The notes under the pieces are model-generated. The model was not told where the DNA came from, did not search any database, and worked only from the letters and a program-made list of their open reading frames with translations. From Anaerolineae bacterium (lineage in GTDB: Bacteria; Chloroflexota; Anaerolineae; Aggregatilineales; Phototrophicaceae), in the NCBI GenBank assembly GCA_020849765.1, contig JADLAY010000027.1, positions 1 through 64,000 on the forward strand: DNA of 64,000 bases. The letters are read 5' to 3'. Below are positions 10,705 to 16,378 of the stretch, in pieces. The position numbers were made by a program, and so were the translations under genes. Each line of letters opens with the position of its first letter. The first letter of the stretch is position 1.

Positions 10705-11046
10705 ATGCAAACAACAATTCGACCAAAGAAGATCACGCTGAATAAGAACGACGGCTACCTTGAAATCACCTGGAGCGACGAGCAAGTCTGCAAATACCCA
10801 CTCTCGCATCTCCGTGAGGCCTGCCCATGCGTGCAGTGTCGAGGTGGTCACGAGTTCATGGGGCGTGAACACGACCCCGAAAATATCCTCGTGCTGACGC
10901 CCGCGCGTTCGTACCAGATTTCGAGCATTGAGATGATCGGTAACTATGCTATTCAGCCGTCGTGGGATGACGGACATCACACGGGGATCTATACCTGGGA
11001 ATACTTGCGTCATCTCTGTCCGCCGGAAAGTAAGGATCGAGCGTGA
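10705..11046 (+). CDS. DUF971 domain protein (GBBH-like N-terminal domain)
   Basis: 113 residues from ATG 10705; a TTG at 10687 in the same frame is a weaker start. The sequence has the DUF971 signature: an N-terminal beta hairpin (LEITWSDEQVCKYPLSHLRE), a Cys-rich CPCVQC motif and the C-terminal tail GIYTWEYLRHLCP. The same domain is found at the N-terminus of gamma-butyrobetaine hydroxylase and next to Mrp/ApbC-type Fe-S proteins, where it may bind metal. No Mrp gene is adjacent here. Its stop overlaps the GTG start of the next gene, so the two are likely translated together. Confidence 0.85.
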   Translation: MQTTIRPKKITLNKNDGYLEITWSDEQVCKYPLSHLREACPCVQCRGGHEFMGREHDPENILVLTPARSYQISSIEMIGNYAIQPSWDDGHHTGIYTWEYLRHLCPPESKDRA

Positions 11047-11609
11047 TCGCCGATATGCCGCCTGGGAACGACTTTTCGGACATTCATGATATTGATTCGC
11101 TTCGGCAGCAGGCGATCACTTTGTACGAGCGCTGTCTGACGGAAGATACCCTCGCGCCGCTCATTCGTTTCGTGGATGACCAGATCATCGTCAATCCGCC
11201 GCGCACACAGTTGCTGCGCGATGTGGCCGACGATTTGCACCAGCGTCTCGTGGCGCTCCAGGAGCAGTACTTCGAGGCGCGCGACCGCGTGCTCTACCTC
11301 GTCAGAACTCGTTTCGATCTCGATTTGTCCGCGTTGATCTCACCGTCACCGGAGACGTATCATCGCCTCCCGATTGACGAACTGATCAACACAATCTGCC
11401 TGCAGAAATCTCTGACTGCCGAAGAAGAGGGGCGCCTGAGACGCATTCTCAAGGTTTCCCACGGCATCGCCACGCAGGTTTTCAACGATGCGCTGCTGAC
11501 CCAGGAACTGCACAGCTACATCAACGACTGGTTGACGGCGCTGAATACGCAGAACGCGCGCCGCCAGGCGGGTGACGATCCTCTCGGCAAAGACAAACAC
11601 ATCCAATAA
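11043..11609 (+). CDS. Hypothetical protein, alpha-helical
   Basis: 188 residues, not recognised. It starts with GTG overlapping the upstream stop by 4 nt (GTGA), indicating coupling to the DUF971 gene. The product is rich in Leu, Asp, Arg and Gln and appears almost entirely helical, without signal peptide, membrane helix or cysteine motif. A central segment (LVALQEQYFEARDRVLYLVR) could form a coiled coil. A conserved-looking LPIDELINTICLQK follows. It may be a lineage-specific soluble protein. Confidence 0.6.
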   Translation: MIADMPPGNDFSDIHDIDSLRQQAITLYERCLTEDTLAPLIRFVDDQIIVNPPRTQLLRDVADDLHQRLVALQEQYFEARDRVLYLVRTRFDLDLSALISPSPETYHRLPIDELINTICLQKSLTAEEEGRLRRILKVSHGIATQVFNDALLTQELHSYINDWLTALNTQNARRQAGDDPLGKDKHIQ

Positions 11610-11798: not shown

Positions 11799-13025
11799 AT
11801 GAAGAGGTTCTTATTGGTGGTAGTCATGTTAGCGTTGGTGCTCGTTCCGGCGATGAGCATCAGTGCGCAGGATTCGGTCACCCTGGTGCTCTGGCACGCC
11901 AAACAGGATGCCGAAGGCGATGCCCTGCTCGCACTGATTGATGCCTTCGTTGAAGCGAACCCGAACATCACCGTTGAACAGGTCTACAACCCCAGCGGCA
12001 CGCTGCAAGATAGCTTTGTGGCGGCGGCGGGCGCCGGTGAAGGCCCAGATCTGGTTGTTTGGGCGAACGACAGCACCGGCCCGTGGGCAAACGCTGGCAT
12101 TCTGGCCGACCTGACCGCCAGCGTCGATGATGAGCTGCGCGCGCAGGCGAGCGATACGGCCTGGGGCACGTTCACGTTCAACGACAGCATCTACGGCATT
12201 CCTTACAGCGCCAAGACCCTGGCGTTCTTCTACAATAAGGCGCTGGTGCCGGATGCGCCTGAAACCTGGGCTGATGTGTTGAGCATCTCCGAAGAATTGG
12301 CCGCCGATGGTCTGACCGGTCTGGTCTTCCAGAACGGCTTCTTCCACAGCGCCGGTTTCCTCTTCTCGCTCGGCGGCAGCTTGATGGACGCCGATGGGAA
12401 CGCCGCTTTCGCGCCGGATACCGATGGGCGCGCGGCGATGGAAGCCTACCTCCAGTTCCACCAGGATATGTATAACCTCGGCCAGGACCCCGACAGCGGC
12501 GTGCTCGTCGACGGTCAGTCGCCGTACCCTGGCTTCCAGACCGGCGAAGTGGCCATGGTCTATGATGGCATCTGGAATCTGGCGCAGTTCGAAAGCGACC
12601 TGGGTGATGACCTGGGTGTCGCCCTGATGCCTGCGCTGGACAACGGCGAAGTGCCCGCGCTCTTCGCGCAGTCCGAGGGCTTCTATGTCAACGCGACCGT
12701 CGCCAATGACCCGGCCAAGCTCGATGCCGTGATGACCTGGGCGCGCTTCGTCACCAGCGAAGAAGGCCAGAGCATTGCCAGTAGTGTCGGTGGCTTGCTG
12801 CCGATCAACCCGGCGGTCGAGGTCGAGGACCCGAACCTGCAGGTCTTCGCCGAGCAGTTCGCTCTCGGCACGCCCTTCCCGAACCGCGAAGAACTGAGCG
12901 CGTTCTGGGGCCCGATGGGTGATGCGATTGCGGCGGTCGGCGCGGGCGGCGAAACGCCAGCAGATGCGGCACAGGCGGCCTACGAGCTGATCCAGACGCA
13001 AATTGATGGTATCCACGGCATGTAA
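11799..13025 (+). CDS. Sugar ABC transporter substrate-binding protein (MalE-like)
   Basis: 408 residues. The ATG follows a strong AAGGAG ribosome binding site. A signal peptide (KRFLLVVVMLALVLVPAM) with cleavage near SISAQD precedes a family 1 extracellular binding domain: VTLVLWHAKQDAEGDALLAL, NPNITVEQVYN, GIPYSAKTLAFFYNKALV and WARFVTSEEGQ are typical of maltose/maltodextrin and related oligosaccharide binders. No lipobox cysteine is visible, so it may be anchored otherwise or freely exported. It heads the operon with two permeases; a hairpin after its stop probably makes it the most abundant product. Confidence 0.92.
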   Translation: MKRFLLVVVMLALVLVPAMSISAQDSVTLVLWHAKQDAEGDALLALIDAFVEANPNITVEQVYNPSGTLQDSFVAAAGAGEGPDLVVWANDSTGPWANAGILADLTASVDDELRAQASDTAWGTFTFNDSIYGIPYSAKTLAFFYNKALVPDAPETWADVLSISEELAADGLTGLVFQNGFFHSAGFLFSLGGSLMDADGNAAFAPDTDGRAAMEAYLQFHQDMYNLGQDPDSGVLVDGQSPYPGFQTGEVAMVYDGIWNLAQFESDLGDDLGVALMPALDNGEVPALFAQSEGFYVNATVANDPAKLDAVMTWARFVTSEEGQSIASSVGGLLPINPAVEVEDPNLQVFAEQFALGTPFPNREELSAFWGPMGDAIAAVGAGGETPADAAQAAYELIQTQIDGIHGM

Positions 13026-13187: not shown

Positions 13188-14444
13188 GTGGCAACCATTA
13201 CCCAAACGCCAACCGATCGACCATCCGGCGAAATGACCCTGTGGGACAGTCTGCGCAAGGGCTTGCGTCAGAGCGGGCTGCCCTGGCTGTTCATCTTGCC
13301 CTCGGCGGTGGCGATGTTTGTCATCACCTTTATTCCGCAGGCATACCAGATCTGGATATCCTTTCGGGACTTCAAAGCCGCGAATCTCGGCGGAGCGCCC
13401 GCGGAATGGATTGGCTTTCTCAACTTCCAGGAAATCCTGACCGGTCAGCTCAACGTACCCCAGTACAATTTCTTGCCGCTGCTCGGCTTCAACATTGTCT
13501 GGACTTTTATCAACGTCTTTTTCCACGTCGCTTTAGGGCTTGCCATCGCGATTGCCCTCAACGGCAAGTTCGTCCTCTTCCGGCGCGCTTACCGGGCCAT
13601 TTTCGTCATTCCGTGGGCGCTGCCCGCCTACATCACCGGCCTGATCTGGAACAACATGTGGCAGGAGAATTCGGGCGGCATCAATCTGCTGTTCGACAGC
13701 CTCAACAAATCGCTCGGCACCAGCCTGCCCACGCGCACGGCCTGGTTGACCACGCTTGATCGCCCGGTAGACTTCCGCACAGGCATTCCCTACGTCGTGG
13801 TCATCGGCTGCGCGATTCTGGCGTTCTTCGTCGGGCGTTATCTGCTCAAGAACGGCCTGACGGACAAGGAGACGGGCAAGCTCAGTTTCGATAAGTCCGT
13901 CTTTGGCCTGGGCGGGCTGATTCTGCTCGTGCTCAGCTTTCTGGCGACGGGCTATGACATCCTGACTGGCAACGTCGCGAACAGCACGGCCTCGCTCTTT
14001 TTTGAGCGAGCGGGTGCGCCTGTACTGGCGTTTTATTCGGTGCTGATCGCCAACATCTGGCTGGGCTGGCCGTTCATGATGGTGGTAGCGACGGGGGCGC
14101 TGACGAGCATCCCGCCCGATCTTTACGAGGCGGCGGACGTCGACGGCGCGAGCAAATGGACGCAGTTCTGGAAAATCACTGTGCCGATGATCCGTCCGGC
14201 CATGGTGCCTGCCATCATGCTCGGCACGATCTGGACGTTCAACCAGTTCAACGTCATCTTCTTTATCACAGCTGGTGGCCCACGCAGCCAGACCGACCTG
14301 CTGATCACGCAGGCGTATAAACTGATCGCGCAAGAGCAGCTCTACGGAGCGGCAGCGGCATTCTCGCTTGTCGTCTTCTTCATCCTCTTGATCATTACGT
14401 TGATCCAGAACCGGATCACGCGGGCGACGGAGGCAGCATACTGA
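13188..14444 (+). CDS. Sugar ABC transporter permease, MalF-like, with membrane insertion
   Basis: 418 residues; the GTG start is supported by an upstream AAGGG. It belongs to the MalF/UgpA permease family: PWALPAYITGLIWNNMWQE, then after an insertion the conserved coupling helix SIPPDLYEAADVDGASKWTQ and a C-terminal membrane pair. Compared with typical 290-300 residue members it has about 95 extra residues (roughly 186-280) between WLTT and the VLIANIWLGW helix. That insert contains two further hydrophobic segments and a short charged loop (GLTDKETGKLSFDKS). It pairs with the MalG-like permease whose gene overlaps it by 1 nt. No ATPase gene is nearby, so a shared MalK/MsmK-type ATPase elsewhere must serve. 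Confidence 0.9.
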   Translation: MATITQTPTDRPSGEMTLWDSLRKGLRQSGLPWLFILPSAVAMFVITFIPQAYQIWISFRDFKAANLGGAPAEWIGFLNFQEILTGQLNVPQYNFLPLLGFNIVWTFINVFFHVALGLAIAIALNGKFVLFRRAYRAIFVIPWALPAYITGLIWNNMWQENSGGINLLFDSLNKSLGTSLPTRTAWLTTLDRPVDFRTGIPYVVVIGCAILAFFVGRYLLKNGLTDKETGKLSFDKSVFGLGGLILLVLSFLATGYDILTGNVANSTASLFFERAGAPVLAFYSVLIANIWLGWPFMMVVATGALTSIPPDLYEAADVDGASKWTQFWKITVPMIRPAMVPAIMLGTIWTFNQFNVIFFITAGGPRSQTDLLITQAYKLIAQEQLYGAAAAFSLVVFFILLIITLIQNRITRATEAAY

Positions 14445-16378
14445 TGAGCACCAATCCAAACATCATCCAGTCGTCGGCGAGCCAGGCGGCGCCACTCTCA
14501 TCGACAAAGCCGGTCGAGGAGTCGCGCGTCAGGTTCAACCTGTCCCCGCACGTCCGCGGGATGATCATCCGGCAGATCTTGCTGCAGCTCTTTTTGCTGT
14601 TCATCACGGCGACCGTCTTGTTCCCGGTCTTGTGGATCGTGTCGATGGCGATCGACCCGCGCGGCATCACGCGCCCGACCGACCTCAACCTGTTCCCGCC
14701 GAACGCAAACCTCGATGCCTTCAACGTCATCCTGACGCAGCAGTTCTCGAACGTGCTGCCGGTCTATTTTGGCGATCTGCTGCTCAACAGCCTGTTTGTG
14801 GCGTTGGGCGTCTCGCTGGCAACGGTGACCATGGGCGCGTCGGCAGCCTATGCGTTTTCGCGCTTCCACTTCATCGGGCGCCAGGCCGGGATGCTCGGCT
14901 TCATCGTGCTGCTGATGCTGCCGTCGACGGGCACGCTGATCCCGCTGTTCATCCTCTTCAGCTCTGTGCAGGTGAACAGCACGTTGGCGGCGGCGGTGCC
15001 CTCGTTCTTCGTCGGCGCGCTGATCGCAGCGGTGGTTTTTGTGGCTTACAACCTGGCGCGCAACTGGTCGAAGATCGATCCGGATCGCTGGTTCAACCCC
15101 GGCCCGATCGGGGTGACAATCGTCGTTGCGGTGGTGATGCTGATCGCCATTCTGATCACCTTCTTCGCGATCTTCCAGCGCACCGAGATTTATGAAACAA
15201 CCATTGCGGCGCCGCTAGCGGAAATCCAGAGCGAGTACGACGAGGCTAAGGCGGATTATGACCGGCGCGTTCAGAGCGTGCAGCAGCGCCAGGGAACAGC
15301 ACTGCGGCGTGAACGCCGCGCCGAAGAAGCTGTCACTGTGCAGTCCTATCTCACGAATCTGCGCGACCGTCTCGCGACCGTCGAGTCGCCGGAGGAGATC
15401 CGCGCCATCATGAACAGCGAACTGGAGACGCGCCTGGAAGAGGCGGAAGACCCCGAAGACGACATCGCGGTGCAGGCGCTGCAAACGGCGCTTCCGATCC
15501 TTGATTCGGGCGGCGTGGCCGGGTTCCGCGCGGGTCTGGATTCTGCCGTGCAGCAGGTGACCGATGAGGTTGCGTCGGCGCAGGACGATGCTGCCACGGC
15601 ACGCGCGAACGCCGACGAGGCGGCCGCCAACCTGGTGACGTCCGAGACAACGCTGGCTGCGGCTCAGCAGCGCGTCGATCAGGAAGCGGCGGGTGTGCTC
15701 ACCCTCCGCGACGATACGTTGCTGCGGGCGATCCCGTATGTGGTGCTGACCTGGATCGCGGGGCTGGCGGGGGCGGCGGTTGTCTGGGTGATCGTGCGCC
15801 TGCTCAAGAACGTCATCGAGCCGAAAGCGCTGGTCAACATCCTGCTCTATGCGTTGATGGCGGCGCTCATCCTCGGCATCGGCCTGACGGCGCTGCAAAG
15901 CCGCATGACGCCGAACATGCCGACGACGCAAGCGCTGCGCACGACCCTGCTCGGCTTGGCGATCGCCTTCGCTTCCGGCGGTCTGCCGTTTGCCATCTGG
16001 AATCTGAAGGGCTACTTCGACACCATCCCGAAGGAACTGGAAGAAGCAGCGCTGATCGACGGCGCAGGGCTGTTCGGCACCTTCATCCGCGTGATGATCC
16101 CGCTGTCGCTGCCCGCCTTCGCCATCGTCATCCTGTTTGCCTTCATGCAGGGCTGGACGGAATTCATCCTGTCGTGGGTGTTCCTGACCGGCCAGACGCA
16201 GAACTACACGCTGGCGATGGCGCTGGCGACGCTGACCAACGGCGCGAATCAGGCGCCGCCGGACATGCAGAAGTTCGCCGCGCTGTCGATCCTGATCTCG
16301 CTGCCAGTGATCATTCTGTTCTTCGCCTTCCAGCGTTGGATCGTTGGCGGCCTATCGCTCGGCGGTGTGAAGGGCTAG
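14444..16378 (+). CDS. Sugar ABC transporter permease, MalG-like, with large coiled-coil/TM insertion
   Basis: 644 residues, more than twice the usual 275-300. The N-terminal part (PLFILFSSVQVNSTL, ending near residue 181) and the C-terminal part (LPFAIWNLKGYFDTIPKELE onward, from about 497) are an ordinary MalG permease with the coupling motif EEAALIDGAG. Between them lie about 310 extra residues: two hydrophobic helices, a highly charged helical region (about 250-425, many Glu, Ala, Gln, Arg) and two or more further membrane helices. The insert falls in the loop before the helix leading to the coupling motif. Reading frame and base composition are continuous across it, so it is not a frameshift or assembly join. 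The start overlaps the malF-like stop by 1 nt. Confidence 0.88.
   Translation: MSTNPNIIQSSASQAAPLSSTKPVEESRVRFNLSPHVRGMIIRQILLQLFLLFITATVLFPVLWIVSMAIDPRGITRPTDLNLFPPNANLDAFNVILTQQFSNVLPVYFGDLLLNSLFVALGVSLATVTMGASAAYAFSRFHFIGRQAGMLGFIVLLMLPSTGTLIPLFILFSSVQVNSTLAAAVPSFFVGALIAAVVFVAYNLARNWSKIDPDRWFNPGPIGVTIVVAVVMLIAILITFFAIFQRTEIYETTIAAPLAEIQSEYDEAKADYDRRVQSVQQRQGTALRRERRAEEAVTVQSYLTNLRDRLATVESPEEIRAIMNSELETRLEEAEDPEDDIAVQALQTALPILDSGGVAGFRAGLDSAVQQVTDEVASAQDDAATARANADEAAANLVTSETTLAAAQQRVDQEAAGVLTLRDDTLLRAIPYVVLTWIAGLAGAAVVWVIVRLLKNVIEPKALVNILLYALMAALILGIGLTALQSRMTPNMPTTQALRTTLLGLAIAFASGGLPFAIWNLKGYFDTIPKELEEAALIDGAGLFGTFIRVMIPLSLPAFAIVILFAFMQGWTEFILSWVFLTGQTQNYTLAMALATLTNGANQAPPDMQKFAALSILISLPVIILFFAFQRWIVGGLSLGGVKG

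Follow-up and report, generated by a model that had tools for sequence, protein, structure and literature searches.

A MalG-type permease of an Anaerolineae bacterium with a predicted helical stalk between core helices 3 and 4

Permeases of type I importers are generally regarded as compact cores of six helices that carry no more than one additional domain. The stretch of DNA analyzed here (64,000 nucleotides of contig JADLAY010000027.1 from an Anaerolineae bacterium, hereafter the window) holds a MalG-type permease gene for which this description is too narrow, and the questions were what the additional length consists of, whether it belongs to the protein, and what it may do there. The uninterrupted malG frame (14444-16378, + strand) starts with ATG, encodes a 644-residue protein, and shares one base with the 3' end of malF. 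The N-terminal permease core (residues 1-177, 14444-14974, +), delimited by alignment to MalG and hydropathy, comprises core TM1-TM3, and the C-terminal core (residues 498-644 and the stop codon, 15935-16378, +), delimited by the MalG alignment and by 74-98% identity among orthologues, comprises core TM4-TM6 and the EAA loop. Between them, an insertion of 320 residues (178-497, 14975-15934, +) was placed in the extracellular loop between core TM3 and TM4 from alignment, hydropathy, and orthologues. Its GC3 was 0.81, within the range of the neighbouring genes (0.78-0.90).

The identity of the core was established by sequence and structure comparison. Residues 44-174 and 505-644 align to residues 13-146 and 162-296 of Escherichia coli MalG (2r6g_G, E 7e-30), and the split of the permease falls exactly at MalG residues 146-162. 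The preliminary description had named the protein as MalG and divided it into N- and C-terminal halves around an insert, with boundaries close to the 178-497 found here; this alignment of both ends bears out the name as well as the division. The NCBIfam MalG model NF008231 was matched in two stretches (E 5e-39) with 134.8 bits, under the curated cut-off of 261, and because this is below the maltose equivalog cut-off, the substrate was left unassigned. The score for Pfam PF00528 was 39.8 bits, above the curated cut-off of 26.4. The EAA loop precedes the fifth core helix (ELEEAALIDGAGLFGTFIRVMIPLSLP, residues 531-557), and its residues E533, A535, A536, D539, and G540 were invariant across 27 sequences. 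For the whole protein, ten TM segments were obtained by hydropathy (45-63, 112-130, 153-171, 182-200, 226-244, 433-451, 466-484, 500-518, 550-568, and 611-629), six of which belong to the core and four to the insert. The six core helices have the MalG fold (VIA-align to 2r6g_G: Z 15.5, 265 residues, rmsd 6.2), with several other permeases scoring alike, and the core fold matches both MalG and other type I permeases. A MalF-type permease and a binding protein are encoded next to malG, in a gene order kept in related loci, and no ATPase gene of the MalK/MsmX type was found within this SBP-MalF-MalG cluster. Taken together, the fold, the EAA loop, the PF00528 score, and the operon context identify this protein as a MalG-type permease.

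The six core helices and the EAA loop are undisturbed by the insert, which adds four TM helices, in line with the count of inserted membrane helices (two, then two or more) proposed from the sequence earlier. In the AlphaFold2 model (27 sequences), the insert was the highest-confidence part of the chain, above the core (pLDDT blocks 82-95), and consisted of a TM hairpin, antiparallel helices of 63 and 88 residues, and another TM hairpin, in this order. The first hairpin is composed of inserted TM helices a (residues 179-209, 14978-15070, +) and b (221-245, 15104-15178, +), and the second of helices c (430-453, 15731-15802, +) and d (460-487, 15821-15904, +), all assigned by AlphaFold2 and hydropathy. 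Stalk arm 1 is modelled as a single 63-residue helix (248-310, 15185-15373, +; AlphaFold2, conservation) and is where conservation within the insert peaks (R275..S278..T285-A286..R288). It is followed by a variable, acidic tip (311-340, 15374-15463, +; AlphaFold2) with a short helix at 316-333, and by stalk arm 2, a single Ala-rich helix of 88 residues (341-428, 15464-15727, +; AlphaFold2, periodicity). Identical elements were obtained when the insert was modelled alone (mean pLDDT 84.8). The stalk is predicted to fold as a helical hairpin with both ends at the membrane, and its length would be approximately 9-13 nm, calculated from 63-88 helical residues at 0.15 nm.

Coiled-coil periodicity was seen in the paired parts of the arms but was not robust, as it depends on the scale and the limits chosen. 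With a nonpolar scale and the arm middles (258-305 and 362-420, limits chosen after the first test), the 3.5-residue periodicity was significant (reached in 19/2000 and 0/2000 shuffles), whereas plain Kyte-Doolittle values over the entire arms gave 388/2000 and 209/2000 (non-significant). Known antiparallel helical hairpins can be superposed on the stalk, e.g., the receptor-binding domain of colicin E9 (119 residues, 2.4 Å). In Foldseek, the insert alone had no matches at E<=0.001 and retrieved generic helical hairpins only, and we therefore propose for it neither a relationship to a known protein nor a novel fold. Within the insert, Pfam matches such as OEP and YdcZ were below the cut-offs and of the kind typical of helical or TM sequence, and were rejected.

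The side of the membrane was assigned by homology: the core helix 3-4 loop is extracytoplasmic in MalG, and the stalk should accordingly lie outside the cell, where the insert is predicted to be near the expected docking site of the sugar-binding protein. The K+R counts of the loops fit the positive-inside rule only in part (the outer loop before core TM4 had 2.4), and the topology is therefore based on the comparison with MalG. Among the three partners suggested in the preliminary description, the ATPase is unlikely to contact an insert in an extracellular loop; the binding protein and the cell envelope are still candidates.

An insert of 313-325 residues was found at the same place in all 14 family orthologues detected (this and 13 other species); it is thus neither missing in close relatives nor coincident with an assembly error, an outcome that the preliminary description had named as fatal to its claim. 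Within the family, the relatives searched yielded no uninserted orthologue, and those genomes that lack the insert had matches of only 43-48% identity in the C-half, which are probably paralogues. The closest uninserted orthologues, approximately 60% identical, have a loop of seven residues at the insertion site. A profile of the insert alone, a search also proposed earlier, matched solely these MalG genes: within the order, 17 of 154 genomes had a match, and of 396 genomes sampled from the class, four did, each with a single copy in this gene. No stand-alone copy was found in these searches. A mobile origin was rejected, there being no plasmid or phage matches. On the core tree, the 14 carriers group with three others that have a longer insert, the uninserted L053/L024 being the next relative (bootstrap not fully settled). 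One gain, in the ancestor of some Anaerolineae, suffices on this tree, which indicates that the insert was gained once. Two database records, L046 (titled Pleurocapsa minor) and L097 (Comamonas sp.), grouped with Anaerolineae and Myxococcus, respectively, and are probably mislabelled or contaminated.

The insert is under purifying selection, looser than that on the C-terminal core: dN/dS between species was mostly 0.05-0.46 for the insert vs 0.02-0.09 for the C-half, with dS near saturation in places. Mean pairwise identity was lowest in the stalk (0.34), slightly higher in the inserted TM hairpins (0.39-0.40), and far higher in the N- and C-terminal core halves (0.73 and 0.82). Divergence is fast in the middle and at the tip of the stalk, and the most conserved stretches of the insert are the membrane-proximal neck and arm 1, away from the tip. 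The shaft is variable and acidic (net charge -7 to -27), and the stalk measures 174-184 residues in all 14 species.

The three longer inserts (L050, L051, and L052, from another family) comprise 579-636 residues at the same site, in proteins of approximately 890-940 residues. Profile comparison with the 320-residue form (272 columns, probability 99.1%, E 2e-18) identifies the two as homologous. The long form continues into a second extracellular part of approximately 300 extra residues, within which L052 (4195-6861) has a PDZ domain at residues ~596-634 (PF17820, E 2.5e-8). A GH13 alpha-amylase-like gene is located near the L050 and L051 permeases. Many loci of uninserted orthologues also adjoin such a gene, and this association in the uninserted loci suggests alpha-glucans as substrates of the group; in the loci with the 320-residue insert, no such gene was found within the stretches fetched.

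The partner permease has also been enlarged, which the preliminary description had overlooked. The MalF-type protein (418 residues, 13188-14444, +) has an extra TM hairpin (TM 198-216 and 237-255, 13758-13997, +) in the loop that matches the MalG insertion site. An insertion of approximately 96 residues with two TM segments was present in MalF of all 14 species with the 320-residue MalG insert, and the hairpin was absent from the three long-insert species and from the uninserted relatives compared. In the same MalF loop, L071, L073, and L107 have insertions of 67 residues and L091 one of 92 residues; these look independent and seem to mark the loop as a hotspot of insertion. At the P2 position, which separates core TM segments 1 and 2, this MalF has only approximately 45 residues, too few to accommodate a P2-like domain. 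When compared by hhalign, the MalF hairpin and MalG hairpin 1 gave P 4e-4 and the other two pairs P 0.003 (probabilities 10-34%), whereas comparisons of the hairpins with core helices failed (P ~0.1 or more). These values are weakly suggestive of a common origin of the three hairpins (one in MalF, two in MalG) by duplication. In a number of Myxococcota-like loci (L092, L096-L102, L105, L109-L112, and L114-L116), the binding protein and MalF match one frame of ~740-1160 residues, a MalE-MalF fusion.

The MalE-like binding protein (11799-13025, +) has a signal peptide ending in ISAQDS and no lipobox cysteine. Just upstream of its gene, a frame of 188 residues (11043-11609) was observed, and similar frames occupy the same place in L038, L039, and L044-L047. 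Where the N-terminus could be read in closely related loci, the binding proteins of insert-bearing loci lacked a lipobox and those of most uninserted relatives had one. An association of the stalk with a binding protein that is not lipidated thus seemed perfect in this set, until the missing lipobox proved to be genome-wide: a lipobox cysteine was present in none of the 30 binding-protein loci examined in the own genome (L118-L147; the N-terminus of L136 was unreadable), where signal peptides end in forms like SAQD and two resemble Tat signals. As no examined binding protein of the genome shows a lipobox, the link is confounded; other importers of this genome have no such insert. Exceptions were also found, namely L051 (long insert and a lipobox-like signal, TAC) and L053 (neither insert nor lipobox). 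Loss of the lipoprotein pathway as the cause of the missing lipobox was ruled out because homologues of lgt and lspA are present.

For the function of the stalk, we tentatively favour, at rather less than even confidence, an extracellular arm by which the MalE-like binding protein is docked or retained at MalFG. An ancestral MalG gained a module, predicted as TM hairpin, helical hairpin, and TM hairpin, once, in the core helix 3-4 loop, and a TM hairpin arose later in the matching loop of MalF. The stalk would then guide or retain the binding protein at the MalFG docking surface, a job like that of MalF-P2, while the extra TM helices would surround the core and serve as the base of the arm. 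This reading is drawn from the position of the stalk beside the docking surface, the MalF-P2 analogy, and the lack of room for P2 in this MalF. For E. coli, MalE is described as an interaction partner of MalF-P2 and of both permeases (PMC3150292). The fast divergence of the stalk middle and tip (34% identity vs 82% in the C-half) speaks against a docking arm, being spacer-like rather than what a fixed binding site would show. A docked binding protein is approximately 5 nm in size, and a stalk of 9-13 nm would extend past it, which also counts against docking. The same excess in length would suit a stalk that spans the wall or a surface layer and holds the importer by a wall component or another surface protein, as would the variable acidic shaft and the extracellular residues added in the sister group, with a protein-binding PDZ domain in one species. 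However, the Pfam search returned no wall-binding domain in the insert, no conserved partner gene was identified, and conservation peaks near the membrane and not at the tip; we consider such an envelope role unlikely, if still a serious competitor of the docking arm.

It is somewhat less probable again, though still a serious alternative, that the stalk is a tolerated by-product of membrane helices added to both subunits, whose packing on one another or on the core would stabilise the heterodimer. The presence of TM hairpins in corresponding loops of MalG and MalF in 14/14 species is in line with this explanation, and the MalF insertions of other lineages at a similar position imply that the loop tolerates insertions, but the near-constant length of the stalk, the purifying selection on the insert, and the conserved residues inside arm 1 argue for more than a by-product. 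A bolder proposal is that the permease-borne stalk captures a freely secreted binding protein in place of lipid anchoring, the matched MalF and MalG hairpins forming an enlarged membrane ring and the whole a distinct class of MalFG; we hold this to be improbable. The chance of an assembly or annotation artefact, or of an unrelated gene inserted into malG, is close to nil: the unusual length was all that spoke for it, and independent genomes refute it, since 14 of them share the insert and its position, three others have a longer homologous version, and the core tree has a single gain.

The stalk-bearing MalG is a real, new form of a known transporter. The open-access papers searched contained no account of a stalk of this kind. 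The 320-residue stalk module and the matched MalF hairpin amount to a natural experiment on the membrane retention of binding proteins in single-membrane bacteria, for which the uninserted orthologues supply the comparison.

Among known systems, mycobacterial LpqY-SugABC (7cae, 8ja7) includes, in SugB, one of the closest solved chains by sequence and fold; SugB, unlike the MalG described here, is of normal length (approximately 275 residues) and stalk-free. The stalk is similar in shape alone to the receptor-binding domain of colicin E, YscO, and the RipA N-terminal domain (Z ~10-11), values within the common range for helical arrangements that do not imply relatedness. With E. coli MalFGK2-MalE (MalG, 2r6g chain G), the protein shares the core fold, the EAA loop, and the C-terminal ...GGVKG end, and the locus shares the neighbouring MalF-type permease and MalE-like binding protein. 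The core helix 3-4 loop has approximately 15 residues in E. coli MalG vs approximately 330 here, where four TM helices and a stalk are added and no ATPase gene was seen beside the operon. MalF-P2, the working analogy for contact with the binding protein, is likewise a large extracytoplasmic addition to one MalFG permease subunit. It lies between MalF TM3 and TM4 (core TM1-TM2), a different loop from that of the stalk. In E. coli, it comprises MalF residues 91-271 and contains sheets (PMC3150292), whereas the stalk is borne by MalG between core helices 3 and 4 and is all-helical.
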